From Crocinitomicaceae bacterium (GTDB taxonomy: Bacteria; Bacteroidota; Bacteroidia; Flavobacteriales_D; Crocinitomicaceae), in the NCBI GenBank assembly GCA_020832365.1, contig JAFIEX010000005.1, positions 1 through 47,735 of the forward strand: a stretch of 47,735 bases of DNA, in the 5' to 3' direction. Shown here in pieces: positions 11,023 to 47,735 of this stretch (position 1 is its first letter; every line of letters starts with the position of its first letter). The notes under the pieces are model-generated. The model made no database searches. It was not told the origin of the DNA and saw nothing but the letters and a program-made list of their open reading frames with translations. The translations under genes were made by a program, and so were the position numbers.

Positions 11023-14000
11023 ATGAACATGAGATTAGTCGCTGGTTTATTACTGCTGTGTTTTTGTAGTTGGGGTGTAGCGCAAGATGTACATAATCAT
11101 GACCATTCTATTTACCATGCTTTCATTGAAAACAAAGGTCAATGGAAAGAGGATGTTTACTTCATGACTAAATTTAATGGCGGTAACTTATGGGTTGAAA
11201 AAGGTCGTTTTTTTTACCATTTTCAAGATTTTTCGGAATACCAAGCCAGCCATGCAGCGTTGAATAAAAAAGTAATTCCCGAATCATTAACTTATCAACA
11301 ACATGCACTATATACGGAGTTGATTGGTGTAAACCTGTCTAATGATGTCATCAAAAAAGAACCTACTGCTCATTATTATAACTATTTTATAGGTAATGAC
11401 CAAAGCAAATGGGTGAATGATGTCCGTGGTTATCACTCCATTACTGTTGCTAATATTTATGATCAAATCGACTTGCATTTTATTGAAAAACATGAGGAGT
11501 TAAAATACGAATACATTGTGCATTCAAATGCAGATGCCTCTGTGATTCGATGGAAATACCATCATCATGACAAATTGCAATTGAAAAAAAATGGAGATTT
11601 ATTGATTACTACACCGCTTGGTGCTTTAATAGAGCAAAAACCTTATGCTTATCAAATAATTAATGGTAAAATCATAGAAATTCCTTGTGTTTATTCACTT
11701 GAGGAGGAGTTTGTCACTTTTCAAATAGGGAATTACGATAAAGATTATACCTTGGTGATAGACCCAACCCTGGTGTTCTCTACTTTTTGCGGGGCCATTT
11801 CTGATAATTTTGGAATGACTGCAACCTATGGCTATGATGGTTCTGCCTATAATGCAGGGATGGTTTATGGGAACAATTATCCGATGCCTGACCCAAATGC
11901 ATTTGATGTGTCTTCGAATCTTACCCTTCCTAATGTAGGGGTGGTGACGACAGATGCTTTTATTTCTAAGTATTCCGCGGATGGAACAACGATGTTATGG
12001 TCTACTTTTTTTGGAGGAGGTGACAATACACAAGGTACAGAAGTACCTCACTCATTAATCTGCGATGAAGATGATAACGTTTATGTCTATGGTGTGACCT
12101 CTGCTTTAGACTTTCCTATTGTAAATGGTGTTCAGCCTAATCATGCTGGTGGTACTCCGCTTTCTATCAATTTTAATGGCACTAATTTTGGCAATGTTGG
12201 AACGGATATCTTTGTTGCGAAATTCAGCGCAAATGGGCATAATTTATTAGGCTCCACTTATGTTGGTGGTTCAGGCAATGATGGTGTCAACTACATGATA
12301 AGTGCAGGGAATTACAACAATGTGCAGGCATACGATAGTTTGTCGTTGAATTATGGAGACCAGTTTCGCGGTGAAATTATGCTGGACGCAGCAAGGAATG
12401 TAATTGTGGCATCTTGCACCAGGTCTATAGATTTTCCAACACAGCAACCATTTCAAGCCGCTAATGGTGGCCAGCAAGATGGCGTAGTTTTCAAACTTTC
12501 CTCGGATTTTAGTTCTTATATCTTTTCTTCTTATTATGGCGGAGCAGAGAATGATGCTTGTTACTCTGTGAAATTAGATGAAAATGAAAATGTAATTTTT
12601 GCTGGTGGGACTTGTTCACCGAACCTTCCTGCTGCTGCTGGTGGTTTTTGGGATAGCTATCAAGGCGGTATAGCAGACGGATTTATTGCGAAGGCAGATC
12701 CTTCTGGTCAAAATTTGTTGCAGACTACCTATGTAGGTATGAGCGATTACGATCAAATCTTCTTTGTCGAGGTGGACAGGGAAAACGAAATTTATGTGGT
12801 AGGGCAGAGCAGAGGCGGTAACTTTCCTGTTTCTCCAGGAGCATACAACAATCCGGGTTCTAGTCAGTTTTTGGCACATTTTAGCACGGATTTAACACAA
12901 ATGCTTGGTTCAACGGTTTTTGGTTCTGGAAGTCCTAATATTGATATTTCACCAGCAGCATTTTTAGTTGATATTTGTGGAAACTTATATGTTTCAGGCT
13001 GGGGAGCAAACATTTTGCAAGCTACACCGATTGGCGCAATGCCTGTTACACCCAATGCTTTTCAGTCCACAGCCCCAAATGGATTTGATTTTTACTTAAT
13101 TGTTATTGAAAGAGAATTTGGGGGGCTATTGTACGGTACGTTTATGGGAGGACCTTTGGCAAATGAACATGTAGATGGCGGAACGAGTCGATTTGATAAA
13201 AACGGAGTGGTATATCAAGCTGTTTGCGCAGGCTGTGGAGGTCATTCTGATTTCCCAACTACTCCGGGTGCATGGTCTGCGAATAACTTGGCATCGAATT
13301 GTAATTCTTTAGTTTTTAAGTTTGACTTTAACCTTATTCCAGTTGCTGAGTTTTCGGTAGATAACAATATTGGTTGCGCGCCCTTTGAAGTGACTTTTGA
13401 AAATAATTCTTCGCAATCAGATGGTTATATTTGGGATTTTGGAGATGGAAATTTAGACAGCACTACTTTTGAACCGACCATTATATATACAGTACCTGGA
13501 ATTTATGAGGTGTTTTTGTATGTAACAGATTCTATTTGCTTAATTACAGATACGGCAATGATTACCATTACTGTAACACCGGAATTAATTTTAGATAGTA
13601 TTCCGCCCATTGAACAATGCGAACCAGGCGTCATTTCTTTAGAAGCTAATAGTTTCGGTACAGCGACACAATTTGTGTGGTCTTCCAATGCGCAACTTTC
13701 CGACACTTTGAATACAAGTATCAGTGACTCAACACTAAACCAATTTATAGCTGATGAAGGTTACCTATACATTCAATTAAGTAATCCCGGATGCGAAAAA
13801 CTGGACAGTGTCTGGGTTGGTTTCACAAGTGCGGCATTATCACTTTCTGGAGATAGCACCATTTGTTTGGGAGAGACGGCCACGATTTTAGCTGAATCTG
13901 TTGATGATGGGATTACATTTAGTAATTTTCAATGGTCACCGGCAGGCATCATTCAATCAGGACAAGGAACTGAGGAGGTTACAGTTCTCCCTAATGGCAC

Positions 14001-14610
14001 CCAATTTATTGTTGTAACAGCAGAAGCAAGCAATGGCTGTATTGTCACAGACTCTATCTTAGTTCAAGTTAGTGATATAGATGCAACGCTAGTATCAGCA
14101 ACAGCATCAGAAACAGATGTGCCACAAGGAAGTATAGTGACTTTAACTGCTCAGCCATCGGGATACACTTATACATGGCTTCCAGCTGCCAATTTAACTG
14201 AGCCCAATAGCCAAATCACGGATGCATTGGTGAATGAAACAACCACGTTCATTGTAATCATATCAGATGGCATTTGCGATAGAGCAGCTCAAGTGGAAGT
14301 CAGGTCTTTTGAGTTTATTTGCGACGAGCCATTCATTTTTGTACCTAATGCATTTACGCCTAATGGTGATGGTAACAACGATATTTTATTCGCTAAAACT
14401 ACCTTATTAGACGAAACTCAAGCTTTTATTTTCCGTATTTTCAATCGTTGGGGAGAAAAAGTTTTTGAAACCAATGACATTGGTACTGGATGGGATGGAA
14501 CATGGCGAGGAAAACTTTCTGATCCAGATGTATATGATTATTACTTGGAAGGCTTTTGCATTGATGGTCAAAATTTCTTAATTCAAGGTAATGTCACATT
14601 AATTCGATGA
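11023..14610 (+). CDS. Large secreted beta-propeller/PKD protein with type B T9SS sorting domain
   Basis: This 1195-aa protein begins with a signal peptide (MNMRLVAGLLLLCFCSWGVAQ). Next comes the module starting IENKGQWKEDVYF (about 30-250), often found before SBBP-type propellers, then propeller repeats with recurring 'FSTFFGG / YGGAENDA' strands (about 250-770). A PKD domain at about 775-850 contains YIWDFGDGN, two Ig-like regions follow, and the C-terminal ~90 residues carry FVPNAFTPNGDGNNDILF ... FNRWGEKVFE ... GWDGTWRG. That tail is the gliding-motility-associated type B sorting domain that directs export by T9SS. The PorP/SprF gene starts inside its stop codon (ATGA), as is usual for type B cargo. 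A role in surface adhesion or gliding is likely but not shown. Confidence 0.93.
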   Translation: MNMRLVAGLLLLCFCSWGVAQDVHNHDHSIYHAFIENKGQWKEDVYFMTKFNGGNLWVEKGRFFYHFQDFSEYQASHAALNKKVIPESLTYQQHALYTELIGVNLSNDVIKKEPTAHYYNYFIGNDQSKWVNDVRGYHSITVANIYDQIDLHFIEKHEELKYEYIVHSNADASVIRWKYHHHDKLQLKKNGDLLITTPLGALIEQKPYAYQIINGKIIEIPCVYSLEEEFVTFQIGNYDKDYTLVIDPTLVFSTFCGAISDNFGMTATYGYDGSAYNAGMVYGNNYPMPDPNAFDVSSNLTLPNVGVVTTDAFISKYSADGTTMLWSTFFGGGDNTQGTEVPHSLICDEDDNVYVYGVTSALDFPIVNGVQPNHAGGTPLSINFNGTNFGNVGTDIFVAKFSANGHNLLGSTYVGGSGNDGVNYMISAGNYNNVQAYDSLSLNYGDQFRGEIMLDAARNVIVASCTRSIDFPTQQPFQAANGGQQDGVVFKLSSDFSSYIFSSYYGGAENDACYSVKLDENENVIFAGGTCSPNLPAAAGGFWDSYQGGIADGFIAKADPSGQNLLQTTYVGMSDYDQIFFVEVDRENEIYVVGQSRGGNFPVSPGAYNNPGSSQFLAHFSTDLTQMLGSTVFGSGSPNIDISPAAFLVDICGNLYVSGWGANILQATPIGAMPVTPNAFQSTAPNGFDFYLIVIEREFGGLLYGTFMGGPLANEHVDGGTSRFDKNGVVYQAVCAGCGGHSDFPTTPGAWSANNLASNCNSLVFKFDFNLIPVAEFSVDNNIGCAPFEVTFENNSSQSDGYIWDFGDGNLDSTTFEPTIIYTVPGIYEVFLYVTDSICLITDTAMITITVTPELILDSIPPIEQCEPGVISLEANSFGTATQFVWSSNAQLSDTLNTSISDSTLNQFIADEGYLYIQLSNPGCEKLDSVWVGFTSAALSLSGDSTICLGETATILAESVDDGITFSNFQWSPAGIIQSGQGTEEVTVLPNGTQFIVVTAEASNGCIVTDSILVQVSDIDATLVSATASETDVPQGSIVTLTAQPSGYTYTWLPAANLTEPNSQITDALVNETTTFIVIISDGICDRAAQVEVRSFEFICDEPFIFVPNAFTPNGDGNNDILFAKTTLLDETQAFIFRIFNRWGEKVFETNDIGTGWDGTWRGKLSDPDVYDYYLEGFCIDGQNFLIQGNVTLIR

Positions 14611-20427: not shown

Positions 20428-20562
20428 ATTGACATGATCCACAGTTTTTTCCCTAAGTTTAAATAATATATCCTTTGTTAAAATTTATTTAAGAAGCCCT
20501 ATTCCATTTTTTAATTCAGATATTTTATGCTATATTCGAATGAAAACTTAACAATACATAGC

Positions 20563-23217
20563 ATGTCTTATTTCAAAATAATGTTCTTTGCCACTTTGTT
20601 AGTCAGTTCTTTAGTTCATGGCTCCTTTGGAAATACACCATACTTTATTGCAAACAATGGACAGCTTTTAGACCAAAATGATAAAAAAAACAAGGCTGTT
20701 TCGCTCTATTTAAATGATGGAATGAATAAAGTGCTGTTTCAAAAAGATAAAATAAGTTACCAATTTGGTAAAGAAATCAATGAAAAAGAAATTGAAGTCA
20801 ATCGGATAGATGTTTTCTTAGAGGGGGCAAATGGAGTTGTGCCAATTGGCGAACAGATTAAAGAGACTTCCTTTAATTTTTACAACGTGGCAGAAAATCC
20901 CATTTTAAGCGTACCGACCTATTCCGCTATTAAATATCCTAATGTATATGATGGAATTGATTTGATTTATTATTTGGATGAGTCAGGGCAGTTGAAATAT
21001 GATTTTCTTGTAGCTCCAAATGCAGATATTTCTCAAATTAAAATGCGTATTGCAGGAGGAACTGTTAGTATTTTGGATAACCAACTAATATTGAAAAGTG
21101 AATTAGGTATTGTAAGAGAATCAGCATTAAAAGTTTTTCAGGAAGATAAAGTAATACCCGCTTATTGGCAAATAGAAGCCGAGCTAATTAGCGTAAATGT
21201 GCCAGATTATGATAGTAATAAATCATTAGTTATTGACCCTCCTGTGCAGCTTTGGGGAACATATTTAGGAGTAGGAGGGATTAATATTGGTCACCAAGGG
21301 GCAGTAGATTCAGAAGGTAATGTACTTGCCTGTGGTGAAACCTCTAATTTTCAATTAATAGCGACATCTGGCGCCCACCAATCCACTTATGGAGGTGGAA
21401 ATTCAGATGCTTTTTTGATAAAGTTTGATGCGACTGGAAATATAATTTGGGGCACCTTTTATGGAGGAGCTGGAACTGATAGAGGATTTTCATGTAATTG
21501 TGATGCCGCTGACAATAGTTATTTAGTTGGTACAACTGGTTCTCCAACGAATATTTCAACGAGTGGTGTACATAGTACTGCAATCAATAGCAGTTTGGAT
21601 GGTTTTCTAGTAAAATTCGATGTGAATGGAATCAGAGAATGGGGGACATATTTTGGTGGAGAATCAGAAGATTGGGTAGATGATGTGCAGATTTCAACTA
21701 GCCAAAAAATAGCAATTTCTGGTAGGACTCAGTCGGCGAACAATATAGCATCAACAGGAGCACACCAGACCACTTATGCTGGTAATAGTGATGGCTTTAT
21801 TGCTGTTTTTAATTCAAATGGCACATTGGATTGGGCTACATATTATGGTGGACCTAGCTATGACCACGTTTGGGGGGTTGGCTTTAATACTGCTGGTGAT
21901 GTGTTTTTTACTGGTCAAACCCAATCTAGTTCGCAAATTGCAACTCCAAATAGCCATAAACCAAATTATACAGGCAATGGAAATGCTTTTTTAGGCAGGA
22001 TGAATGCCAACGGTGTTAGGCAGTGGGCGACTTATTTTGGAGGAAATAACCAAACATTTGGCAAAACGATCAATGTATTGACAAATGGAAATGTTGCTAT
22101 CGCAGGAGAGACTAGCGCAACCAATGGAATAGCTTTTGGCAATGTTTATCAAAATACAAATGCAGGAGCATCTGATGGATATATTGCTTATTTTCAACCT
22201 TCGGGAACCTTGAACTGGGCAACTTATTTTGGAGGTCCTTCCTTGGATATGGTAAACGATATAACAAGTGATACGAATAACTTCATTTACATCGCAGGTG
22301 AAACATGGTCACAGTCTGGGATTGCATCTTTAGGCAGTCATCAGGAAACTTTTGGAGGAGGTGCGGATGATGCATTTATTGCTTCATTTGATCTATCAGG
22401 AAATCGTTTGTGGAGCTCTTACTTTGGTGGCGAAAATCAGGATAAAGGAAGTGGAATTACTGCGAAGGGAAATCAAGACATTTATTTGATTGGTAGAACA
22501 AATTCCATTGCCAATATAGCGACTACTGGCACACAACAATCAACAAATACTAATGGTGTATTGTGTTTATTTGTTGCAAAATTTGACGGGGAACAAAATG
22601 TTTCAGGATGCGATACAACTTTTGCTACGGTCAACTGGGATGTTTGTGATCAAGTAACTTCGCCAAGTGGCGCTCAAACATGGACGCAATCAGGTATTTA
22701 TATGGATACCATTTCGAATGTACAAGGATGTGATTCCATTATAACAGTCAATTTAACAGTAACAAACATCGATTTAGCCATTTCGTTAGTGGATGACACC
22801 ATGTTGGTATTATCCCAAGCTAATGCAAATTACTCATGGATAGATTGTAATGATTGGAGTGTGATACCAAATGAAACAGGAAGTATTTTTACACCGAATT
22901 CAAATGGTGCTTTTGCAGCGATTATTGACTATCAAAATTGTATAGACACTACGCAATGTATTGCAATTCAAGTGCTAAGCAATTCAGATTTCATCTTGGA
23001 TGAATGGCGTGTTTTTCCGAATCCATCTAATGGTGTAATTTGGATAAGCAGCAAGCAAGGTGGTAATTTCAAAGTTTTTGATTCCCTCGGAAAAGAGGTG
23101 GGCACATGGGCGATTAAACCTGGAATTGATGAGTTTATTCTTGAAAATGCTTCAGGTATTTATTTTATTGCTAACCCTGTCGATGGCTCAAGAAAAAAAG
23201 TGATAGTCACAAAATAA
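20563..23217 (+). CDS. Secreted SBBP-type beta-propeller protein with type A T9SS sorting domain
   Basis: From the ATG at 20563 the product has 884 aa and a signal peptide (MSYFKIMFFATLLVSSLVHG); an ATG at 20527 would only add 12 residues before it. The segment FIANNGQLLDQNDKKNKAV (about 25-230) is the same pre-propeller module seen in the protein at 11023. Seven propeller units of 64 residues follow, each with a W[GA]TYFGG strand. The C-terminus, after RVFPNPSNGVIWISS, is a type A T9SS sorting domain (GIYFIANPVDGSRKKVIVTK). It lacks PKD and has no PorP partner. A near-consensus -7 box is not evident upstream. It is probably an extracellular adhesin or surface protein. Confidence 0.92.
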   Translation: MSYFKIMFFATLLVSSLVHGSFGNTPYFIANNGQLLDQNDKKNKAVSLYLNDGMNKVLFQKDKISYQFGKEINEKEIEVNRIDVFLEGANGVVPIGEQIKETSFNFYNVAENPILSVPTYSAIKYPNVYDGIDLIYYLDESGQLKYDFLVAPNADISQIKMRIAGGTVSILDNQLILKSELGIVRESALKVFQEDKVIPAYWQIEAELISVNVPDYDSNKSLVIDPPVQLWGTYLGVGGINIGHQGAVDSEGNVLACGETSNFQLIATSGAHQSTYGGGNSDAFLIKFDATGNIIWGTFYGGAGTDRGFSCNCDAADNSYLVGTTGSPTNISTSGVHSTAINSSLDGFLVKFDVNGIREWGTYFGGESEDWVDDVQISTSQKIAISGRTQSANNIASTGAHQTTYAGNSDGFIAVFNSNGTLDWATYYGGPSYDHVWGVGFNTAGDVFFTGQTQSSSQIATPNSHKPNYTGNGNAFLGRMNANGVRQWATYFGGNNQTFGKTINVLTNGNVAIAGETSATNGIAFGNVYQNTNAGASDGYIAYFQPSGTLNWATYFGGPSLDMVNDITSDTNNFIYIAGETWSQSGIASLGSHQETFGGGADDAFIASFDLSGNRLWSSYFGGENQDKGSGITAKGNQDIYLIGRTNSIANIATTGTQQSTNTNGVLCLFVAKFDGEQNVSGCDTTFATVNWDVCDQVTSPSGAQTWTQSGIYMDTISNVQGCDSIITVNLTVTNIDLAISLVDDTMLVLSQANANYSWIDCNDWSVIPNETGSIFTPNSNGAFAAIIDYQNCIDTTQCIAIQVLSNSDFILDEWRVFPNPSNGVIWISSKQGGNFKVFDSLGKEVGTWAIKPGIDEFILENASGIYFIANPVDGSRKKVIVTK
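21252..22600 (+). repeat. 192-bp tandem coding repeat series in the propeller protein
   Basis: The codon for the Trp of W[GA]TYFGG occurs at 21252, 21448, 21640, 21832, 22024, 22216 and 22411, so the central units are exactly 192 bp (64 codons) apart. Each unit also shares A..G.HQ...GG..DAF..KFD. The copies have diverged in sequence while keeping length, and each is one propeller blade. Confidence 0.85.
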
Positions 23218-36409: not shown

Positions 36410-37036
36410 TTACAGTTCAAAGTTTAATTGACTAAATCTTCGAGCTTCCGATCGAATAAAATCGGCATCAATATGCTCAGGAAGTAGGACATTACCTAAC
36501 TTTTTAATTTTAGTGAATTTTTCGATTATTTTTTCCGTATGCGCGGATGGCTCATCGGTATAAATAATTCCAGCAATGGGTATGTTTCTTTGCTGAATAG
36601 CAGCAACTGTTAGTAAGGTGTGATTAATACTGCCTAAGTAATTTCTTGAAACCAGTATAATGGGTAAAGCACTTGCAGCGTAGAGGTCTAAAATTGTCTC
36701 TCCTTTTTCGTTTAGCGGAACTAAAATGCCACCAGCTCCTTCTAAAACAAGGGGTTTCACTATGTTTTTTGGAAATTGAATATCTTCCAAGCAAATAACT
36801 ATATTTTCTAGATTTGATGCTTCATGCGGTGCCATGGCTGCTTTTAAGGCAAAAGTATTGGGTAATGCATCAACTTTATCTGAGCACCATTCTATTACTT
36901 TATGTCGGTCAGAGCGCTCCAAATCTCCGGCTTGAATAGGTTTAAAATAAGTGGCGCCTATGGCCTCTGAAACGATTGCACTAATAATTGTTTTTCCAAC
37001 ATCCGTTCCAATTCCTGCTATGGCAAATCCCTTCAT
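36410..37036 (-). CDS. bioD: ATP-dependent dethiobiotin synthetase
   Basis: BioD closes the ureido ring of dethiobiotin from diaminopelargonic acid, CO2 and ATP. The 208-aa product has the P-loop GIGTDVGKTI (residues 7-16), the KPIQAGD segment (31-37), the AMAPHEAS motif and the VLEGAGGILVPLNEKG segment typical of the family. It is on the minus strand as the first gene of a pair; the rest of the biotin pathway is not in the window. A -7 box is found 26 bases upstream of the ATG. Confidence 0.95.
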   Translation of the reverse strand: MKGFAIAGIGTDVGKTIISAIVSEAIGATYFKPIQAGDLERSDRHKVIEWCSDKVDALPNTFALKAAMAPHEASNLENIVICLEDIQFPKNIVKPLVLEGAGGILVPLNEKGETILDLYAASALPIILVSRNYLGSINHTLLTVAAIQQRNIPIAGIIYTDEPSAHTEKIIEKFTKIKKLGNVLLPEHIDADFIRSEARRFSQLNFEL

Positions 37037-37156: not shown

Positions 37157-39067
37157 TTAGTAAACAACTAATTTTTCTGTTCTTCCTGATTGGTCTGATA
37201 AGAAGTAAACACCTTTTTGCCAGTCCGAAACATCAAAAGTAAATCCATTAAAATCACTAGACTTTACTTCAATTGGTCTCAATTTTCCAAGCGCATCAAT
37301 TACTGTCAAGCTTTGTAAATTCATCCCTTCAATATGCACTAAACTATTTGCAGGGTTTGGATAAACTTTAGTGCTGTTAAGGGCAGATTCAGAAAGAGAT
37401 AATTGGACTTTAATATCACTGGCAAATCTTGGTGAAAGTCGGAAGTTACCAAATGCAAAATTCACTACACCAATAACTTCATAACGTTGTCCTAAAATGG
37501 CTTGATAAACATGCATTTTATCATCAACTCGCAGAGCGCCTGAACCATCATTCACTTGCCACATGCTGAACCCCAAATTGTCGTTTGTGCATATCGCATC
37601 TTCAACTCTTATAAATACACCTTCCCATTGTTCTTGAGCTACACTACCAGTATTTAATAAACTGGGTAATGGTAAATCCAAGTTACTAGCAATCACCTCA
37701 AAACTTGTTACGTTGGCAATTTGTGTTACCCCATTAAATTCAACCACTCTTCCAGCTACAACAACTGAATCACCAACTGAAGGTTGGTTTGTGCTATTGA
37801 ATACCTCAATACCAGTCCATGGTCCAACGCCATCTTGAATAAAATAGAAAGAAGAACCAGTAGCAGTTACGATACCTGTTGTGGTTACATTTTCATCTTT
37901 TAATGGAGAGTCTCCACTTGGATCAGTGGTAAATTGAATATCAAAAATACTTGTTATTCCTGAAGGAATATTTTCTCCAACAAAAACATTATCAATGCGA
38001 TAAGTAGATCCATCTGTGTTGCTGCCAACATACTTATAGGCAATGTAAACAGCGTTGTTGCCGCTATAATTGGACAGGTTAATATTGCCAGATGAGACTA
38101 GAGTCCAAACACTAATATCTTGATCCATATTAGCAAGGTTCGTAATATTATCCCAAGTAAAACTGTTGGTAGGGTTACTGGTTCCATCATAATCTGTAGA
38201 AACCAGTATTTCCAAATTGTCACCGGCAAATCTCTTAGTATGATCAAAACTAAAGATGACGTTGGTAACACTGCTAAAATCAATAGCAGGTGTAATTAAC
38301 CAGGTCTCTACTTCTTGGTTATTTCCTGAAACAAAATTCCCCATACTGGCAAATTTGTTTCCACTAAAGCTTCCCTGAGTCCAATTCAAATTCCCTGAAG
38401 AGGGCACAACAGTAAAGGTCGTCCATGGATTATTGGCAGTTAAGTTTGCACCTTCAAAATCATCACAAAATAAGCCGGTTGCACAACCACCAACAGTTGT
38501 TCCATCTTCTTCTAATAAAATGTTATCTATCCTGTAAGTGGAACCATCAGTTGTGCTTCCAACATATTGAAACGCAACATAAATGGTCTCGTTATTGTAA
38601 GTTGATAAATCAATTTCTCCAGAGCTAATCAATGTCCAAACTGAAATATCTGTATCAAAGTTAGCTAAGTTCGTAATGTTACTCCAAGAGAAACCATTTG
38701 TTGGATTGCTCGTCCCATCGTAGTCTGTAGAAATTAAAAGCTGAATATCATCTCCTGCGAATCGTTTAGTGTTATCAAAAGATAACACAGGATTTTGAGA
38801 ATTAACTAAAGCAATACTCGGAGAAATCAACCATGTCTCTAATGCTTCGTTGGTGTTATTGGTGAAATTGGTCACTTGAGCAAAACTATTTCCACTAAAT
38901 GTATGGTAAAACCATGTTTGGTTACTTGCAGATGGCGCAACATCATAAACATTCCATGCATTGTCTGCAGTTAACGATCCTCCATTGAAGTTTTCTTGAA
39001 AGTAAACTTGTGACTTCCCCATGAAGGAAATACAAATAACTCCTAAAAAAGTAAATAAATTTTTCAT
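37157..39067 (-). CDS. Secreted choice-of-anchor-J / OB-fold protein with type A T9SS tail
   Basis: The 636-aa protein has a signal peptide (MKNLFTFLGVICISFMGKSQ), then two tandem choice-of-anchor-J (cleaved-adhesin-like) domains, at about 21-190 and 198-370. Both repeat ETWLI[ST]PAI, KRFAGD, STDYDGTSNPTN and GSTYRIDN. An OB-fold-like region follows at about 372-555 (VTTTGIVTATGSSFYFIQDG, GDSVVVAGRVVEFNG), of the type seen ahead of extracellular nuclease domains. The C-terminal 75 residues (KVYPNPANSLVHIEG ... GVYFLSDQSGRTEKLVVY) are a type A T9SS sorting domain. It ends the operon behind the receptor and lipoprotein. It has no recognisable catalytic site and may bind substrate. Confidence 0.9.
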   Translation of the reverse strand: MKNLFTFLGVICISFMGKSQVYFQENFNGGSLTADNAWNVYDVAPSASNQTWFYHTFSGNSFAQVTNFTNNTNEALETWLISPSIALVNSQNPVLSFDNTKRFAGDDIQLLISTDYDGTSNPTNGFSWSNITNLANFDTDISVWTLISSGEIDLSTYNNETIYVAFQYVGSTTDGSTYRIDNILLEEDGTTVGGCATGLFCDDFEGANLTANNPWTTFTVVPSSGNLNWTQGSFSGNKFASMGNFVSGNNQEVETWLITPAIDFSSVTNVIFSFDHTKRFAGDNLEILVSTDYDGTSNPTNSFTWDNITNLANMDQDISVWTLVSSGNINLSNYSGNNAVYIAYKYVGSNTDGSTYRIDNVFVGENIPSGITSIFDIQFTTDPSGDSPLKDENVTTTGIVTATGSSFYFIQDGVGPWTGIEVFNSTNQPSVGDSVVVAGRVVEFNGVTQIANVTSFEVIASNLDLPLPSLLNTGSVAQEQWEGVFIRVEDAICTNDNLGFSMWQVNDGSGALRVDDKMHVYQAILGQRYEVIGVVNFAFGNFRLSPRFASDIKVQLSLSESALNSTKVYPNPANSLVHIEGMNLQSLTVIDALGKLRPIEVKSSDFNGFTFDVSDWQKGVYFLSDQSGRTEKLVVY

Positions 39068-39078
39068 TGTGGTAAAGA

Positions 39079-40347
39079 TTAGTTTTCTTGTATAATTATA
39101 TCATCAACCTGCCAAGTAGCAGCACTTTGACCATTGCCACTTTGATATTTGAACGCGACTGTTACATTGTCTGTCAAGAATTGAATCATAGGAATAATTC
39201 CAGAGTTTGTCCATAGAAAATCACCAGGCGACCAATTGGCAAATGAGGTGTAATTGACCCATGTTCCTTGTTGTGCAGGATTGCTTACTCCGTCATAATC
39301 TGTTGAAACCATTAGTTGTAAGGCCGGTCCGTTGAATCTCGTAGAACTTCTAAAAGTTAATTGTGGAGCTGTTGCATTGGACAAATCTACTAGAGGAGAT
39401 ATTAACCAGATTTCAGTATCATCGGCACTACTACCATTCCAACCAGTAGCCACCGCATAATAATTACCGGGCGAACCTTGGCTTGAAGTTGTCCACGTGT
39501 GATTACCTGGCGTGCTCTGAACAACATAACTTTGCCAACCACCTGAACTTATACTTTGGTCATTAAAATCTTTACTCAAATAAAAGCTTGTGGGGTCACC
39601 GCCACATCTTTGGCCATTCATTTTCACCTCTTCAATGCTTCTAATTAATAGCTGTTTAACCCCATTAAATTCATTCGCAATGGCGACCATGCTACCATTT
39701 CCTTGAGCCACGGTTTGTCCAGCAAAATCGGCAAAGCCGCTTGTTCTTACAATTATTTCATTACCATTACAATCTGTAAGCGTTCTATTCAGTGATTGCT
39801 GTGTTGCAGCATTGGCATAAGTGCCGCTCAAATCGTTAGAAACAAACTCAACGTTTTCTAAACGAACCAATCTTGACTGGAAATCACTATTGATCAGGTC
39901 AGCAATGGTAACCACGGTAGGAGCGAAAGTTCTTTGCGTGGCTTGCTTAATAATGTTTCTATCGACATCCACTGAGTCCAATTGAAGTAGACCGTTAAAG
40001 GAGGTCAAAGTTGTACCTTTTAAAGCAATTCTAACAGAATCACCAACGAATAAACCTCCTGGAAACCTCGTTCTAAGAAGAATGGCGTTCGTTTCATCCT
40101 CTGCATAAGCGTTTCTGAAAATATTACCATTTCTATCATCCATGGTTATAGTTGCGAAAACAGAAAAATCATCTTCAAATCGAATAGACTCACCTTGAAA
40201 AAGATCTCGTAGCTCCTGAATGGTTAAAATGTTTCCAACAGGAATTTCCTTTATGGGTGGTTCATCAAATTCTCTTTTACGACAGCTACTTATGATAAGC
40301 ACTGCAAGAATTATAATTAAGGCGCTATATTCTTTACTTTTCATCAT
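39079..40347 (-). CDS. DUF5689 / choice-of-anchor-J lipoprotein, receptor partner
   Basis: This 422-aa lipoprotein starts with MMKSKEYSALIIILAVLIISSC, the lipobox cysteine being residue 22. Residues ~35-245 fit DUF5689 (TIQELRDLFQGESIRFEDDF, FVGDSVRIALKGTTLTSFNG), an OB-fold-like domain of Bacteroidota lipoproteins encoded beside TonB receptors. Residues ~260-422 are a choice-of-anchor-J domain (ETWLISP-like EIWLISPLVDL, STDYDGVSNPAQ) homologous to the two copies in the next gene. It lies one base after the receptor gene and 11 bases before the secreted protein. A surface-exposed substrate-binding role, like that of SusD, is inferred from position only. Confidence 0.86.
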   Translation of the reverse strand: MMKSKEYSALIIILAVLIISSCRKREFDEPPIKEIPVGNILTIQELRDLFQGESIRFEDDFSVFATITMDDRNGNIFRNAYAEDETNAILLRTRFPGGLFVGDSVRIALKGTTLTSFNGLLQLDSVDVDRNIIKQATQRTFAPTVVTIADLINSDFQSRLVRLENVEFVSNDLSGTYANAATQQSLNRTLTDCNGNEIIVRTSGFADFAGQTVAQGNGSMVAIANEFNGVKQLLIRSIEEVKMNGQRCGGDPTSFYLSKDFNDQSISSGGWQSYVVQSTPGNHTWTTSSQGSPGNYYAVATGWNGSSADDTEIWLISPLVDLSNATAPQLTFRSSTRFNGPALQLMVSTDYDGVSNPAQQGTWVNYTSFANWSPGDFLWTNSGIIPMIQFLTDNVTVAFKYQSGNGQSAATWQVDDIIIQEN

Positions 40348-40348
40348 C

Positions 40349-42889
40349 TTATAAACTTAAACTTAACATGGCGAAAGCCGTAAAACCAAATAAATAAGAA
40401 TACATTGGCGGAAAACGATTAATGTCCGCTGGTGTATATCTCAATTGTTCGAATCCACCAATTCTGAAATCTTGGTTGTTCAATAGGTTACTTATACTGA
40501 CATTTAGATTCAAAAATCGTTTTTTAATTTTCCAAGATTTCCCACCATATAAATCAATGGTAAAGTTGGCGTCTAATCTTTCTTGCGCAACGATGTCTCG
40601 CCATTGAGGGTCAGATGCAACAAATCCTGAGATGGCTTCTTCTGTTCTTCTATCTGGGTTGGGGTCAAGGTAAATATGGTCAAAGAAATTAATAGATGCT
40701 CCAACAAACCAATATTTTGGAGAATTGTATCTGAAACCAAATGATGCAGCTGTTTGTGGCATTCCACCAACTCTGTAGTTTTGCAAATAAACAGTTCTGT
40801 TCTCATCGATTAATTCTGCATTATTGTCTCTTGAAATAGTTGCTGATGGACGCGAATTATAAACGCCTAAACCATGCGCTACAACAAAGTGGGTAGAAAT
40901 AGTAGAAGTCACATTCCAGTCTGCCCCAAATTCTAAACCTGTAAATAAATTATCCACACCTGTCATTGCATAGTTGACTAAATTTCTGAACTCATCATGA
41001 AAAAAGCTACGGTTCCAAACTTGATTTTGAATTTCTGTATAATAAAGTGTTGCACGCATCTTTATTTTTGGATAACGTAAAAAGTAATTGATATCGCCAC
41101 TAAATAGTACTTCACTTTCTAAACCTGGAACCAAATCATGTCTTGTTCTGGGTGATAAATAGGCATTGCGCATAAATGGAGCTCTGGTCATTGCAAGCGC
41201 ATTAGCAGTAAAATATTGTCTTCCAGAAATTTTATAAACAGCACCTGCTTTAAGTCCGCCATTGTGAAAATTTTGTTTCTCGCTATCTCCATAGGAATTA
41301 TCCAAAAACCTTGCATTACGCATATTCCCAGTGCGCCAAAAAGAGGTATAAGTATAATTAACGCCACCAAATATTTCCAATTTACCAAAATCATGCTCGA
41401 TTTGAGCAAATAACGATTGTCTATTGATATTGTTGGTATAATCAAAACCGAAGCGATCTCCCTCTAAAATCAAACCATTTGGGTTGTCTACGTTGTTGAT
41501 GGCTAATTCTGGATCTATCAAATCTCTTTCAGCGAATTGGTCAATGTCTATCCAAAACTCTCCACCCAGTAAATCTTTAACTTGTCGGTAATTATAACTT
41601 TTATAAACGGAGAAATTGTAGCCAGCATTTAAAACAGTTTTTGGGGTAAATCGTTTTTCTAAAACCACATTCCCACCAGTTTGAATATGATCTTGCCTCT
41701 GTTCTTCTAACATGAATTTTGAACGCATTCCAGTAATGTCATTTCCGGGAATTCCACCAGCATTTTCGACTGTAAAAAGATTCTTTCTGTTGGCGTGAAA
41801 AAAATCATCCCATCTAATTTGTCTTTGGTTAACATCCGTTTGCCAAGCCTGAATCAGCGCTAATTGCTCAGCTGAGCCATCTTCTTGCCATGAAGGTAGG
41901 TAGCGATAAAATGTGGGTCTAGGATCTGCCGCTTCATACCAGTTTAATCGTGATACTCCTCCACGCCCTCCTTGTGCGTAAATACCAGTAATTAAATCTG
42001 TTGAAGGGTTTATTTTAAAGTAGTGGTTCACAACAGCAGTTGGTTTGTGGAAATTACTTACTCTGCTATTTCGTTTTACACCATTTTGAAAGCCCCAATC
42101 TGGATTGTAGAAATTTGTTCCTGCCAAATCCATAGCTTCCTGCACTGCCATTCCTTGTCTTCCTTGAACGATTGGCGCTCCAAAAATAATTGCACTGATT
42201 GAATGATTTTTATTGATTTCTTTTTCAGCTGCTAAATAATATGCCCAAGCATCAAAAAATGTTCCTTCTACATAACCCTCTTCGGCATACCTTCTAGACG
42301 CAGAGGCTGCAAAAGACCATCCATCTTCTCTTTTTCCAGTGGCGTGAGTTACCATGAATCTGTGGCGATAGGCCCGATTGGTTCCAGCATAAGAGACCTT
42401 TGTCCCTGCTCTTATATTGGAAGCTCTTGCATTGATGCTAGAATACCCTAAAAGTCCAGTAAATGCCTCTCTAGAAGGAACTATGCCTGTTTGAACATCC
42501 ATAAATCTTGTGATGTCATTGAGGCCACTCCATGTCGCCCAAATAGCTCTTCCGGTTTCCATGTCGTTTAAGGGGATGCCATTAATGAAAACAACCTTGT
42601 TTTCTGTCCCTAAGCCTCTGATTCTAAATCTCGCTTGACCAAATCCAAAACCTGCTGTGGCTGTGAATATATCTCTCGAAGATTGCAATAAACCTGCGAT
42701 ATCTTGCGAACCAAAATCACTGTCTGAATCAGCATCCATATTGAATACTGGTATTTTATTATTCCTAAAAATAGCAGAGGTATCTTTTGGAGATTTTTGA
42801 CTCCTTAATGTATCAATTATCTCTTGACCAAACGAAAATTGCGACAATGAACAGGCAAAAAAGGAGCAATATAATATGGTTCTTAACAT
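40349..42889 (-). CDS. TonB-dependent outer-membrane receptor
   Basis: This 846-aa protein has a signal peptide (MLRTILYCSFFACSLSQFSFG), a plug domain at about 45-160 (QARFRIRGLGTENKVVFINGIPLNDM) and a 22-strand-type barrel. It lacks the N-terminal carboxypeptidase-regulatory-like domain common in SusC proteins, so it is an ordinary-type receptor, not a SusC. Sequence is rich in aromatic strands up to the last residues FGFTAFAMLSLSL. The ligand cannot be read off. It is the first gene of a three-gene operon with the DUF5689 lipoprotein and a secreted OB-fold protein, opposite a nuclease/phosphatase operon, which hints at nucleic-acid or phosphate products as cargo. Confidence 0.93.
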   Translation of the reverse strand: MLRTILYCSFFACSLSQFSFGQEIIDTLRSQKSPKDTSAIFRNNKIPVFNMDADSDSDFGSQDIAGLLQSSRDIFTATAGFGFGQARFRIRGLGTENKVVFINGIPLNDMETGRAIWATWSGLNDITRFMDVQTGIVPSREAFTGLLGYSSINARASNIRAGTKVSYAGTNRAYRHRFMVTHATGKREDGWSFAASASRRYAEEGYVEGTFFDAWAYYLAAEKEINKNHSISAIIFGAPIVQGRQGMAVQEAMDLAGTNFYNPDWGFQNGVKRNSRVSNFHKPTAVVNHYFKINPSTDLITGIYAQGGRGGVSRLNWYEAADPRPTFYRYLPSWQEDGSAEQLALIQAWQTDVNQRQIRWDDFFHANRKNLFTVENAGGIPGNDITGMRSKFMLEEQRQDHIQTGGNVVLEKRFTPKTVLNAGYNFSVYKSYNYRQVKDLLGGEFWIDIDQFAERDLIDPELAINNVDNPNGLILEGDRFGFDYTNNINRQSLFAQIEHDFGKLEIFGGVNYTYTSFWRTGNMRNARFLDNSYGDSEKQNFHNGGLKAGAVYKISGRQYFTANALAMTRAPFMRNAYLSPRTRHDLVPGLESEVLFSGDINYFLRYPKIKMRATLYYTEIQNQVWNRSFFHDEFRNLVNYAMTGVDNLFTGLEFGADWNVTSTISTHFVVAHGLGVYNSRPSATISRDNNAELIDENRTVYLQNYRVGGMPQTAASFGFRYNSPKYWFVGASINFFDHIYLDPNPDRRTEEAISGFVASDPQWRDIVAQERLDANFTIDLYGGKSWKIKKRFLNLNVSISNLLNNQDFRIGGFEQLRYTPADINRFPPMYSYLFGFTAFAMLSLSL

Positions 42890-42893
42890 GCGG

Positions 42894-42901
42894 CAAATTT
42901 A
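42894..42901 (-). promoter_or_regulatory. -7 box directly before the receptor start codon
   Basis: Minus-strand TAAATTTG ends four bases before the ATG at 42889. If used, transcription starts at or within a base or two of the start codon and the operon mRNA is leaderless. No TTTG is present at the -33 distance. Confidence 0.4.
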
Positions 42902-42976
42902 GTTCAAAGCATTCTAAAAAAATACAGTGTAGAAAAGAATTAATGTAATGTTAATAACTTGGTAAAAGTTAATCCT

Positions 42977-42984
42977 TAATTTCG
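42977..42984 (+). promoter_or_regulatory. Variant -7 box (TAATTTCG) of the nuclease operon
   Basis: TAATTTCG differs from TAnnTTTG at one position and lies 65 bases before the ATG at 43049. It is the best plus-strand candidate in the 159-base hub between the two divergent operons. Confidence 0.3.
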
Positions 42985-43048
42985 TAAAGCATTTTTGGAA
43001 TAATCATTGCAACTCCATGGTGTATTTGGTAATTATTTTAATTGTTTT

Positions 43049-44131
43049 ATGATTAACGGTATTTATTTCTCAAGACTTAATAGGGGATTGCTAACGCTTA
43101 CATTATTAGCAGTTCATTTTGTAGCCTGTACACAATCAAAAGATAAAGATTATGAAATTGCTGCTATAGGTTTCTATAATGTTGAAAATTTATTTGACAC
43201 CATTGACACACCTGGTGTAAGGGATAGAGAATATACGCCAACAGGAGCCAATCAGTGGGGGACAGAGCGCTATTATGAAAAATTAGATAGACTATCAGAG
43301 GTACTTGCTTTAATGGCTAAAGAAACAACACCAGACGGCCTTGCGGTTGTGGGCTTAGCTGAAATAGAAAATGAAGAAGTGATTCGAGATTTAATTAATA
43401 CGGAAAGATTAAAAGATAGGGGGTATGAAATTGTCCACTATGACTCTCCAGATAAGCGCGGTGTAGATGTCGGATTGATTTACCAACCAAAATACTATCA
43501 AGTTACTTCGAGCAAATCTTATACCCTGAAAATTGACGGGATGGAAAATTTCTTCACTAGGGATCAGTTGTTAGTGTCGGGGAATTTTCTTGGTGAAAGA
43601 ATGCACTTCATTGTTGCGCATTGGCCTAGCAGAAGGGGAGGGGAGAAAAGAAGTTCTCCATTGCGAGAGGCTGCCGCTGATTTAGCCAGATCCATTATTG
43701 ACTCCATTCAAACTGCTGAAAATGGAAATGCAAAAATCATGTTTATGGGCGACCTGAATGACGATCCAACCAATGTGAGTGTTAGAAAAAATATGAGGTC
43801 TGTTGGGAAAATTGAAAAAGTGCGACCTGGAGAAATGTTTAATCCATTTGAGTACTTCTTTAAGAAAGGTATTGGAACTTTGGCATGGCGAGACTCATGG
43901 AATTTATTTGATCAAATTATTCTGACAGAAGCATTAATTGACCAAAGTGATTTTACCAATTGGACCTATTACAAAGCGGTTGTTTTCAATAAACCTTTTC
44001 TAATGCAGCAAGGAGGCAGATTTGAGGGATATCCCTATCGCAGTTTTGCTGGAGGTCAATACATTGGCGGATATAGCGATCACTTTCCAGTATATCTCTA
44101 TATTTTGAGAGAAATTTCTTCTCAGAAATAG
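43049..44131 (+). CDS. Endonuclease/exonuclease/phosphatase family lipoprotein
   Basis: From the ATG at 43049 the protein has 360 aa and a lipoprotein signal ending in VHFVAC; the frame is also open from an ATG at 43007, which would place 14 non-signal residues ahead of it. The DNase-I-like fold is shown by NVENLFD (near 44), the metal-binding GLAEIENEE (near 103), VDVGLIY, IVAHWPSRRGG (catalytic His near 189), FMGDLNDDPTN (near 233) and the C-terminal GGYSDHFPVYL. All hallmark residues of the EEP superfamily are present, so it is probably active, cutting phosphodiesters in DNA, RNA or phospholipid head groups. It begins the plus-strand operon. Confidence 0.92.
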   Translation: MINGIYFSRLNRGLLTLTLLAVHFVACTQSKDKDYEIAAIGFYNVENLFDTIDTPGVRDREYTPTGANQWGTERYYEKLDRLSEVLALMAKETTPDGLAVVGLAEIENEEVIRDLINTERLKDRGYEIVHYDSPDKRGVDVGLIYQPKYYQVTSSKSYTLKIDGMENFFTRDQLLVSGNFLGERMHFIVAHWPSRRGGEKRSSPLREAAADLARSIIDSIQTAENGNAKIMFMGDLNDDPTNVSVRKNMRSVGKIEKVRPGEMFNPFEYFFKKGIGTLAWRDSWNLFDQIILTEALIDQSDFTNWTYYKAVVFNKPFLMQQGGRFEGYPYRSFAGGQYIGGYSDHFPVYLYILREISSQK

Positions 44132-44175
44132 TTGAATTTTGTTAAGTGTCTGATAAAAATATCTCAAGTTTTAAT

Positions 44176-44183
44176 TATCTTCG
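44176..44183 (+). promoter_or_regulatory. Variant -7 box (TATCTTCG) before the PLD gene
   Basis: TATCTTCG differs from TAnnTTTG at one position and lies 15 bases before the ATG at 44199, predicting a leader of about 10 bases. The PLD gene may thus have its own promoter as well as the upstream one. Confidence 0.25.
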
Positions 44184-44198
44184 AAAAAAATATCATAG

Positions 44199-46127
44199 AT
44201 GCAAAGAATTTACCTACTTACTTTAGTAATGCTGCAGAGTTTTTTTTGTTTCAATTACTTAAATAGTCAATTAATAGCTTCACCGATACAAGTTTCGGAT
44301 ATCACAACTACAGGGTTTAAGTTATCATGGGAAAATACCAGTGTGGCTAATTCCTTTATTCGACATGGTCATACACCAAACTTAGAATTAGGAATTTTAA
44401 ATGCCGGACCAACAACGAATCCAGTAATTGAAATAACCAATGCGCAGCCATCGCAATTGTATTATGTGCAAGCGGTGGCCCAGTTTGGTGGAGATTTAGA
44501 CCAAACAGATACGCTAGTTTTTATTACCCAATCCAATTCTACTGGTAAGATAAATACTTATTTTAATCAAAGTGTCGATCAAACTGTTGCCCTGCCTGGG
44601 AATGAAGCGGTTCATACACCAAATTCGATTGATGATACATTGGTGAAATATATTTTAATGGCACAAGAATCTATTGATGTGGCTGTTTATAATACGACCA
44701 GTTCCTCGGCAGTTGCTGATATTGCAGGAGCCCTGAATACAGCACATGCAAATGGTGTTCAAGTAAGGGTGATTTACAATGAAAATACCGGTAACACTGC
44801 AATCCCTTTGCTTTCACCTGGTATTCCTCGATTGGAAAGTCCACCAGCTGATTTTAACAATAATATAGGCATTATGCACCACAAATTCTTCGTTTTTGAT
44901 GCCAATGCTAACAATCCTAATTTACCGAGGGTTTGGACTGGCTCGACTAATCTAACTACGCAGCAAGTGAATACAGACGCCAATCATGCTGTGCTTATAC
45001 AAGATCAATCATTAGCAATTGCCTATTGGCTCGAGTTTAATGAAATGTGGGGGTCAGATGGTTTTCAACCGAATCCTCAAAACGCCAAGTTTGGCATTCA
45101 AAAAAAAGACAATACTCCTCATGTGTTTAATGTAAATGGTATAAAAGTCGAATCTTATTTTAGTCCGTCAGATAACACGAATCAAAGAATTGTTGAAGCA
45201 ATATATGAGGCGAATACGGAATTATTAGTGAACACCATGTTAATTACAATGAACAGTCTCGCGGATGCCATCATTTTTCAGCATTTTAATGGTGTAAACA
45301 CCGCTGTGCTTGTCAATACTGAATCACAAAGTTCTACATTCGGTCAGTTAAGAAATACTTTAAAAGGGCGATTGGCAGAATATTCTGGAATTACAGGTAT
45401 TTTACACCATAAAACTATGATGACAGACGTCCTTTCGAATCAAAATCCATTAGTATTGACTGGTTCGCATAATTGGAGCGCCAGCGCTGATAATATCAAT
45501 GATGAAAATACCATCATTATTTATGACGAAATGGTTGTAAACCAATTTTTTCAGGAATTTATGGCACGCTTTGAACCAATGGCATCCCAAGTTGAAGCAA
45601 TTGATGACCAAAAAACAGTTTATGGTGAAACGATTCATATTTTAGATGTTTCTGAAAATGATAATTTATACTTCACGATTGTTCCCACAACATCAATTGT
45701 TCATCCTCCTGCAAATGGCATCGCAAATGGTTCTAATTTAGGTGTAATTTCTTATCTTCCAAATACAGGATATTTGGGTATTGATTCCTTAATGTATCGA
45801 ACTTGTAATCATACCATTAAATCTTATTGTGATTCGGCTTGGGTTTACATTCAAGTTGAAAAAGAGCTTTCAACTGTTGATGTGAACGTGACTCATAATC
45901 TAAATATTTTCCCCAATCCAGCGAAAGATAAGGTAGAATTGCAATCTGATTTAGAACCAATCGAAAAAGTTATAGTTCGAGATGTTACTGGTAAAGTTAT
46001 TGGGCAAGATCAACCTAATTCTTACACTATGGAATTTGATGTAAGCACTTGGAATAATGGTGTTTATTTTATTTCCGTTACAATAGGGGATAAAACTGCT
46101 AATCGTAAAATAGTTGTAGCGCATTAA
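44199..46127 (+). CDS. Secreted phospholipase-D-superfamily protein with T9SS tail
   Basis: This 642-aa protein has a signal peptide (MQRIYLLTLVMLQSFFCFNYL) and a fibronectin-III-like region to about 110 (SDITTTGFKLSWENTSV). It then carries two PLD catalytic HxKxxxxD motifs: HHKFFVFD near 227-234 with GSTNLT behind it, and HHKTMMTD near 402-410 with GSHNWS. Both halves of the active site are complete, as in Nuc-type nucleases and cardiolipin synthases. A linker with VSENDNLYF precedes a type A T9SS sorting domain (NIFPNPAKDKVELQS, GVYFISVTIGDKTANRKIVV). It is probably a surface or released phosphodiesterase. The stop overlaps the next gene by one base (TAATG). Confidence 0.92.
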   Translation: MQRIYLLTLVMLQSFFCFNYLNSQLIASPIQVSDITTTGFKLSWENTSVANSFIRHGHTPNLELGILNAGPTTNPVIEITNAQPSQLYYVQAVAQFGGDLDQTDTLVFITQSNSTGKINTYFNQSVDQTVALPGNEAVHTPNSIDDTLVKYILMAQESIDVAVYNTTSSSAVADIAGALNTAHANGVQVRVIYNENTGNTAIPLLSPGIPRLESPPADFNNNIGIMHHKFFVFDANANNPNLPRVWTGSTNLTTQQVNTDANHAVLIQDQSLAIAYWLEFNEMWGSDGFQPNPQNAKFGIQKKDNTPHVFNVNGIKVESYFSPSDNTNQRIVEAIYEANTELLVNTMLITMNSLADAIIFQHFNGVNTAVLVNTESQSSTFGQLRNTLKGRLAEYSGITGILHHKTMMTDVLSNQNPLVLTGSHNWSASADNINDENTIIIYDEMVVNQFFQEFMARFEPMASQVEAIDDQKTVYGETIHILDVSENDNLYFTIVPTTSIVHPPANGIANGSNLGVISYLPNTGYLGIDSLMYRTCNHTIKSYCDSAWVYIQVEKELSTVDVNVTHNLNIFPNPAKDKVELQSDLEPIEKVIVRDVTGKVIGQDQPNSYTMEFDVSTWNNGVYFISVTIGDKTANRKIVVAH

Positions 46128-46861
46128 TGAGATTCTTTGTGAAAAATACCTTTATTGTTCTAGCGATAATCGCAGTATTCTCCTGCCAAAAATCTAGGGT
46201 GGTTGTAATGCAATCAAGGACTGTCTCTGTGAACGCATCAATTCAAGAAAATCAACAATTGCAACTTTTTTTAATACCATTTCAAGATAGTTTAAAGCAA
46301 AGCATGAACCAAGTTTTAAGTTACAGTTTGGAAAACTTAGAACGACAACAACCAGAAGGTAAGCTAGGTAATTTTACAGTTGATTTATTGCGCAATGCAA
46401 TCATAGAAAGAGGTGTTTTCGATGCGGGTAAATTTCCTGTTCTTGCCATTTTGAATAATGGAGGTCTAAGAAGTCCAATTCTAGCAGGAGATGTTACAGT
46501 AGGAAGTGTATTCAAACTCATGCCGTTTGATAATGAAGTTGTGTTTATGAGGTTACCATTCACTGTTTTACCGGCGCTACATGAGGTATTAATCAGCAAA
46601 GGAGGAGAACCAATATCTGGAGGAAGCGTAAATCATGAAAGTATTCAGTTGTCAGATACAGCCGCGATGCGACAAGATTCTATTTGGTTAATCACCTCAG
46701 ATTATTTAGCGCAAGGAAATGATGGATTTGAAGCCCTGCGAAAATTTGAGTATCAATCTGCTCAAATATTACTGCGTGAATTGCTGTTAGAAGAAATAGC
46801 AAAAAAAGATACTATTCGAACAACGATTGATGGCAGATGGAATCTAAATAAAGCGGAATGA
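46127..46861 (+). CDS. 5'-nucleotidase C-terminal-domain lipoprotein
   Basis: The 244-aa product opens with MRFFVKNTFIVLAIIAVFSC, a lipoprotein signal with a lipobox at FSC. The rest is the substrate-binding C-terminal half of 5'-nucleotidases: LGNFTVDLLRNAI, ILNNGGLRSPILAGDVTVGSVF near 108-130, MPFDNEVVFMRL and YLAQGNDGFEALRKFE near 190-205. Here it is encoded alone; the metallophosphatase half is the next gene. It starts with an ATG overlapping the previous stop (TAATG) and its stop overlaps the next start (ATGA), so the three are translationally coupled. Confidence 0.88.
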   Translation: MRFFVKNTFIVLAIIAVFSCQKSRVVVMQSRTVSVNASIQENQQLQLFLIPFQDSLKQSMNQVLSYSLENLERQQPEGKLGNFTVDLLRNAIIERGVFDAGKFPVLAILNNGGLRSPILAGDVTVGSVFKLMPFDNEVVFMRLPFTVLPALHEVLISKGGEPISGGSVNHESIQLSDTAAMRQDSIWLITSDYLAQGNDGFEALRKFEYQSAQILLRELLLEEIAKKDTIRTTIDGRWNLNKAE

Positions 46862-47735
46862 AAAGAAGGATTTTTGTTCAAAGCAGCGTTTTGACTGGAT
46901 CAGGTTTGATACTTGCACCAAATCAAATTTTATGCGCTCAACCCCAGAGTAGTGCTTTGAATAATTTTGAACGTTTAACAATATTGCATACAAACGACAC
47001 GCATTCACATATCGAACCACTTTCTGAAAAAGACAAAAAATTTCCAAACCAAGGAGGAGTAGCAAGAAGGATGACATTAATAAATAACATCAGGTCTGAA
47101 GTCGAAAATGTCTTGCTTTTTGATGCTGGTGATATTTTTCAAGGAACACCATACTTTAATATGTTTCATGGTAAGTTAGAACTGGAACTCATGTCAAAAA
47201 TGGGCTACGATTGCGCAACTATGGGGAATCATGATTTTGATGGTGGAATGGATGGTTTTAAAAATGCACTCGAATTTGCCAATTTTCCTTTCGTTTGCAG
47301 TAATTATGATTTTTCCAATACGATTTTAAATGGACTCACAAAACCTTTTTCAATTTTTGAAAAGGGCAGCTTGAAAATCGGTGTTTTTGGTATTGGAGTG
47401 CCTTTAAATGGCTTAGTACCCAAACATTTGTATGGTGAAACTATTTATTTAGATGCCATTCAAAAAGCCCAAGAAATGGCCGATTTTTTAAAAAATGAAT
47501 CACTTTGTGACTGGGTTGTTTGCCTTAGTCACCTCGGTCATTTTCCTCGTCAATTTGAAATATGTGATCCTATTTTAGCGAAGGAGACTCATGGAATTGA
47601 TTTAATAATTGGAGGGCATACTCATACCCTTTTAGAACGTCCTGAGGTGCACAAAAATTCAAAAGGGGAGAAGGTGCTGATCAACCAAGTTGGATGTTAT
47701 GGTGCTGTTTTAGGAAGAATAGATTTGTATTTTGG
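46858..47735 (+). CDS. 5'-nucleotidase/metallophosphatase, N-terminal part (cut by window end)
   Basis: The frame starts with ATG at 46858 inside the previous stop codon and is still open at the right edge (292 residues visible). It begins MKRRIFVQSSVLTGSGLIL, a twin-arginine-like signal, then shows the calcineurin-like metal motifs in order: HTNDTHSHIEP, FDAGDIFQGTPYFN, TMGNHDFDGGM and GGHTHTLLERP. Such proteins remove phosphate from nucleotides (UshA-type). The substrate-binding C-terminal domain is the previous gene, so the two halves should work as one enzyme. Only the metallophosphatase domain is visible; whether a second C-terminal domain follows is unknown. Confidence 0.9.
   Translation, partial: MKRRIFVQSSVLTGSGLILAPNQILCAQPQSSALNNFERLTILHTNDTHSHIEPLSEKDKKFPNQGGVARRMTLINNIRSEVENVLLFDAGDIFQGTPYFNMFHGKLELELMSKMGYDCATMGNHDFDGGMDGFKNALEFANFPFVCSNYDFSNTILNGLTKPFSIFEKGSLKIGVFGIGVPLNGLVPKHLYGETIYLDAIQKAQEMADFLKNESLCDWVVCLSHLGHFPRQFEICDPILAKETHGIDLIIGGHTHTLLERPEVHKNSKGEKVLINQVGCYGAVLGRIDLYF

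Follow-up and report, generated by a model that had tools for sequence, protein, structure and literature searches.

Our comparative analysis of a 47,735-nucleotide stretch of DNA from a Crocinitomicaceae bacterium, hereafter the window, which is the entire contig C169 (JAFIEX010000005.1) of a 3.13-Mb draft genome (325 contigs, 98% complete), shows that its last 10.6 kb hold a locus of seven genes, A to G, whose core layout is deeply conserved across the class Bacteroidia. On one strand lie a secreted protein (A), a DUF5689 lipoprotein (B) and a TonB-dependent receptor (C), and on the other an exported EEP-family enzyme (D), a secreted enzyme of the PLD superfamily (E) and a 5'-nucleotidase split into two genes (F and G). 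We propose that the locus probably serves to scavenge and import nucleic acids, through an outer-membrane step that some lineages would share with natural transformation. An initial annotation, made from the letters of the window alone, had listed these genes with their coordinates, two operons diverging from a 159-base hub, and no SusD. All seven genes were found where it had placed them (Table 1), 159 bases separate the end of C from the ATG of D, and domain-family searches gave no SusD match for any of the seven locus proteins.

The receptor, DUF5689, EEP and PLD were searched for in 39 relatives and next in samples spanning the order and the class, together with one named genome scan; this provided about 200 loci, whose open reading frames were labelled with profiles made from the window genes and their relatives. 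Full-length receptor frames split cleanly into matches to the type I profile (E <1e-150), which include C of the window and the Weeksellaceae-type receptors discussed below, and other receptors (E >1e-95). The type I set comprises 168 loci from 22 families, and the orthologues of C across Bacteroidia are 29-61% identical. B is adjacent to the receptor or nearby in 164 of the 168, a proportion to be discounted since part of these loci were collected via DUF5689; the subset collected via the receptor alone gives the same picture. D lies within 7 kb of the receptor in 132 of the 168 type I loci and nearby in 21 families, and it is divergent from the receptor in 126 of the 127 cases in which the two are within 1.2 kb (median spacing of 137 bp across 126 homologous hubs). 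The two operons are thus co-conserved, one of the points on which the initial annotation had staked its proposal, and this D|C-B layout (the bar marking the divergent hub) is the conserved core. The complete D-E-F-G order was found in the window only; one related genome likewise has E beside D.

Around this core, the nuclease content is exchanged. Behind D, the slot is occupied by a PLD protein in the window and in L160, by Endonuclease I in L150, and by an EEP protein with a sorting tail of the type IX secretion system (T9SS) in at least seven loci (L061, L069, L138, L151, L162, L164, L165); in others it is empty. Exchange extends to a second type of receptor, type II, which is ~22% identical to type I, carries a CarboxypepD_reg domain, and is flanked by a secreted LTD-domain protein on one side and a T9SS-tailed nuclease on the other, either Endonuclease I or PLD depending on the family. 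DUF5689 forms the front part of a fusion in 21 of these type II nucleases (14 PLD and 7 Endonuclease I). Within the family of the window, F-G follows both type I and type II receptors; of 24 genomes sampled from this family, type I is present in eight and type II in ten, and no genome carries both (chance 0.004, ancestry ignored). In five genomes, type I occupies the chromosomal site held elsewhere by type II, beside citrate synthase, a DPP-IV peptidase or both, and in the Flavobacteriaceae the two types sometimes stand side by side. Because the receptor accompanies nucleases of three unrelated folds as well as a 5'-nucleotidase, nucleic acid appears to be the simplest common substrate, an assignment of substrate class that this gene exchange supports well without proving it.

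The nearest experimental evidence comes from Riemerella anatipestifer, where markerless deletions of RS04915, a receptor-like protein with CarboxypepD_reg, and of RS04920, which combines DUF5689 and DUF5017, bring transformation below the detection limit (PMC8459023). According to the authors' proposal, double-stranded DNA crosses the outer membrane by way of this pair and is then acted on by an unknown nuclease (PMC8459023). Transformation is also reduced in tonB mutants of the same species, which is partly explained by iron starvation (PMC8383284). Our comparison with this pair, absent among the 80 named loci examined, relies on published architecture, gene order and identity ranges, not on sequence. 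The type I C-B pair and RS04915/RS04920 have a common architecture. In Flavobacterium covae, the order is receptor-DUF5017-DUF5689, with an extra gene between the receptor and the DUF5689 gene, and the same extra gene has been noted in the close species F. columnare (PMC8459023). Weeksellaceae-type loci, labelled so from their membership in the Flavobacterium order and from family scores, and presumably of that family, are 34-38% (receptor) and 25-34% (B) identical to Polaribacter-like ones, to be compared with published values of 32-36% and 29-36% for such genera (PMC8459023). At D|C-B loci of Weeksellaceae type, five of seven B proteins score 564-749 bits against NF052645, the M949_1556 subfamily, with a cut-off of 475. 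As these four indirect tests agree, we place the R. anatipestifer pair in type I, which would make the window's C-B pair a member of the same family. Family f50 was rejected as Weeksellaceae, its loci consisting of large SusC-like receptors with a DUF5689-related protein. In all Weeksellaceae-type loci examined, an EEP gene is divergent from the receptor, so that D becomes a candidate for the missing nuclease of transformation. For the reading of the initial annotation, centred on phosphodiesters and nucleic acids and modelled on polysaccharide utilisation, the outcome is partial support and an extension: its substrate gains support from the way in which unrelated nuclease folds replace one another next to a constant receptor and 5'-nucleotidase, and its closest experimental anchor proves to be DNA uptake and not a polysaccharide-like import.

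This raises the question of whether the locus is primarily a natural-transformation machinery, in which C-B would carry double-stranded DNA, D would make single strands for ComEC, and the nutritional genes would be passengers. The R. anatipestifer genetics, with its vacant nuclease step, the class-wide divergence of D from the receptor, and the presence of ComEC in the window's genome (E 8e-55), where no secretin of the pilus-mediated DNA-uptake type was found, all speak for it. However, ComEC occurs in 225 of 245 genomes of the order and is kept also where neither receptor type was found, so that its co-occurrence, considered as possible support, is uninformative. DprA was not found in the window's genome, a negative to be read with the fact that a gene may be lacking from a 98%-complete draft of 325 contigs; Flavobacterium johnsoniae has homologues yet is not transformable under the tested conditions (PMC8459023); the EEP gene is not among the reported hits of the R. 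anatipestifer screen, which with 3,000 mutants was not saturating; and secreted nucleases would destroy transforming DNA. We therefore consider a primary role in transformation unlikely. The secreted PLD and the 5'-nucleotidase fit feeding better and, together with the missing DprA, make nutrition look the likelier function here; the secreted Endonuclease I proteins of F. johnsoniae increase when phosphate is depleted (PMC8115612). Two further observations concern ComEC: it is found in the neighbourhood of the locus only once among many loci (L139:1327-3462, family f44), and it is shortened (584-589 versus ~650-700 amino acids) in three genomes of genus g2 (G001, G023, G060) that have neither a type I nor a clear type II receptor.

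On the receptor side, C has a TonB Plug domain and lacks the N-terminal CarboxypepD_reg domain; its AlphaFold model (pLDDT 77.5) finds TonB-dependent receptors as best PDB matches (E 1e-25), which indicates the general fold only, and we propose that it is the outer-membrane importer. B, proposed as cap or partner of C, contains DUF5689 (PF18942, E 7e-45) and a choice-of-anchor-J domain, with a lipobox whose Cys22 is invariant across 19 homologues; it reaches 147 bits against NF052645, below the cut-off of 475. Fold searches with its model are dominated by the anchor-J beta-sandwich (CBM, MAM, cleaved adhesin), suggestive of a general fold only, and a weak sequence match to SSB (E 0.59) was rejected as evidence. 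A, probably a surface partner that binds the substrate, matches the NCBIfam choice_anch_J family with 118 bits, ends in a T9SS sorting tail (TIGR04183), and shows a partial OB/ExeM-like match to NF033681 at residues 418-499 (E 3e-7, 29.5 bits). Homologues of A occur downstream of B in 13 families.

On the enzyme side, the catalytic motifs of D, E and G are intact. D belongs to Exo_endo_phos_3 (PF19580, E 3e-123), and among its 142 homologues the catalytic GDxN is found in 140 and SDH in 131; its score against NF033681, 28 bits, is far under the cut-off of 300. The mechanical open reading frame of D opens at a TTG (43007), and the ATG at 43049 gives a signal peptide and the 159-base gap. Its description as an EEP nuclease lipoprotein in the initial annotation holds for the EEP domain and for a local lipobox; only five of the 142 homologues have this lipobox, so that lipoprotein status is not a family-wide trait and appears to be local to the window's lineage. 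D is probably a periplasmic or outer-membrane nuclease. E has two PLDc_2 domains, two HxKxxxxD (HKD) motifs and a T9SS tail, is 54% identical to the E protein of L160 (a locus of E-D|C-B-A layout), and probably represents a secreted nuclease in the variable slot. A second PLD protein, ~35% identical to E, is encoded in the same genome at a distance from the locus (L057:7142-9124, contig C154). F, a lipoprotein, contains 5_nucleotid_C (PF02872, E 9e-13) and G contains Metallophos (PF00149, E 1e-17), with matches to 5'-nucleotidase structures at E 1e-36. G has the metal-site motifs NDTH, GD, GNHDF, SHLG and GGHTH, lacks approximately its last 10 residues, cut by the contig end, and 22 of 24 homologues carry a Tat-like RRx[FLVI] motif. 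F and G would pair into one 5'-nucleotidase.

Several observations weigh against nucleic-acid import. A and B are both strongly acidic, with median pI values of 4.1 and 4.6; neither has the basic charge that would hint at DNA binding, and such acidity is unusual for proteins holding DNA, unless metal ions bridge the two. The 41 homologous hubs, compared with a possible PHO-regulon motif in view, share no 8-mer above shuffled controls, F-G adjacency is seen in one family only, and D is absent from the C-B locus in a group of Flavobacterium (L237, L241-L243, L245-L249, L253-L262, L264, L265, L270, L284). For M949_1556, the namesake of the B subfamily, effects on lipopolysaccharide (LPS), antigenicity and virulence of R. 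anatipestifer are reported, and these would be compatible with a wider role at the surface. Finally, the EEP, PLD and UshA-like folds all include non-nucleic members, and EEP and PLD enzymes also cut phosphodiesters other than nucleic acids. The last point, and the fact that the best PDB sequence match of E is a mitochondrial cardiolipin hydrolase (2e-6), from an HKD family for which claims of nuclease as well as lipase activity exist, would suit a locus acquiring phosphate from other phosphodiesters, such as phospholipid head groups, teichoic-acid-like polymers or nucleotide sugars. We regard this as improbable: the same slot is filled beside the receptor by Endonuclease I, often fused to DUF5689, and we know of no members of this family other than nucleases; E has NucT-like matches in NCBIfam, which under the NucT equivalog cut-off assign it at the level of the PLD superfamily only; and the R. 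anatipestifer genetics ties the receptor pair to DNA uptake. Similarly, the M949_1556 phenotype, the acidity of A and B, and the carbohydrate-binding-like beta-sandwich of B could be accounted for if C-B were a general pair for outer-membrane or surface assembly (for example of LPS or surface antigens), the loss of transformation being indirect and the nucleases unrelated neighbours. D is co-conserved and almost always divergent at close range, the nuclease partners are swapped and not simply dropped, and type II loci have nucleases with DUF5689 fused to them, all of which make this explanation very improbable.

Returning to nucleic-acid scavenging and import, we infer the substrate, the direction of transport and the order of steps at the core of the locus as follows. 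E, secreted by the T9SS, would trim extracellular DNA or RNA, and A and B would hold the fragments at the cell surface above C, which, powered by TonB, would move the polymer or oligonucleotides into the periplasm. There, D would cut the imported material to nucleotides, from which F and G, together a 5'-nucleotidase, would release phosphate and nucleosides. In other lineages, the C-B(-D) core might also feed DNA to ComEC for transformation. Extended to Bacteroidia as a whole, and more speculative, C, B and D may form a TonB-driven, pilus-independent DNA importer that serves feeding and, in some lineages, transformation, accompanied by an interchangeable surface nuclease of three unrelated folds; we put this forward only tentatively.

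Table 1. Features of the divergent locus at the end of the window (positions in the 47,735-nucleotide contig)
Feature	Position	Strand	Description
A	37157..39067	-	Secreted T9SS protein, two choice-of-anchor-J domains and OB/ExeM-like segment
B	39079..40347	-	DUF5689 + choice-of-anchor-J lipoprotein
C	40349..42889	-	Type I TonB-dependent receptor
Divergent intergenic hub	42890..43048		159 bp
D	43049..44131	+	EEP-family (Exo_endo_phos_3) exported enzyme
E	44199..46127	+	T9SS-exported PLD-superfamily enzyme
F	46127..46861	+	Separate lipoprotein with the C-terminal (substrate-binding) domain of a 5'-nucleotidase
G	46858..47735 (contig end)	+	5'-nucleotidase catalytic (Metallophos) domain, Tat-like signal

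Beyond A, a protein with a bioD-like ATPase domain (36410-37036) lies outside the locus, and elsewhere in the window two large secreted proteins (11023-14610 and 20527-23217) resemble the SBBP-repeat/T9SS type as judged from their sequence. Some type I loci show peculiarities of their own: in Flavobacterium covae (L283:6771-10809) the receptor and EEP frames are interrupted, by decay or sequencing error, and in Myroides (L275, L297) two type I receptors lie within ~6 kb. In five loci of another family (L300-L304), a DUF5689-related protein follows a SusC-sized receptor of ~1080-1190 amino acids and a SusD-sized lipoprotein of ~500 amino acids, and a protein with a Tat-like signal (MNRRSFIQ...) comes next in four of the five; this is a different use of DUF5689, possibly in phosphate scavenging.

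The only genetic lead that we found on the passage of DNA across the outer membrane in Bacteroidia comes from a single duck bacterium. Through the locus described here, this lead becomes widely distributed, D emerges as a candidate for the nuclease that is missing, and a connection to nucleotide breakdown appears, as does a second type of receptor taking the place of the first at one and the same site. The question of feeding versus transformation becomes testable in ordinary marine and soil Flavobacteriia. In the open-access literature, we found no account of a nucleic-acid utilisation locus that includes a TonB receptor in this group, and none of the full locus; the receptor pair is already known from one species. 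Like polysaccharide utilisation loci (SusC/SusD), the window places a surface lipoprotein and secreted hydrolases beside a TonB receptor, but it has neither SusD nor any carbohydrate-active enzyme, and its hydrolases are of phosphodiester-cutting families. The ExeM/NucH nucleases (NF033681) are matched in different parts of the model by the OB-like segment of A and the EEP domain of D, modules that are carried by separate proteins in the window, with 28-30 bits versus a cut-off of 300. F-G shares both domains and the metal-site motifs with 5'-nucleotidases of the UshA/CD73 type, except that the domains are in two genes and in reversed order, one with a lipoprotein signal and the other with a Tat-like one. 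The secreted Endonuclease I proteins EndA1 and EndA2 of Flavobacterium, with their LTD/fn3 domains, resemble the type II nuclease partner in domain content; unlike the window's enzymes, they are described as orphan genes, without receptor or DUF5689 partner (PMC8115612). The closest counterpart is the R. anatipestifer pair RA0C_RS04915/RA0C_RS04920 (PMC8459023), in which, as in the window, a protein resembling a TonB receptor stands beside a lipoprotein with DUF5689 and choice-of-anchor-J/DUF5017. C of the window is ~31% identical to the Weeksellaceae-type branch (L219) and differs from RS04915 in lacking CarboxypepD_reg, a domain present in some type I relatives (for example in L148), and to this pair the window adds a secreted PLD enzyme, the secreted protein A and a split 5'-nucleotidase.

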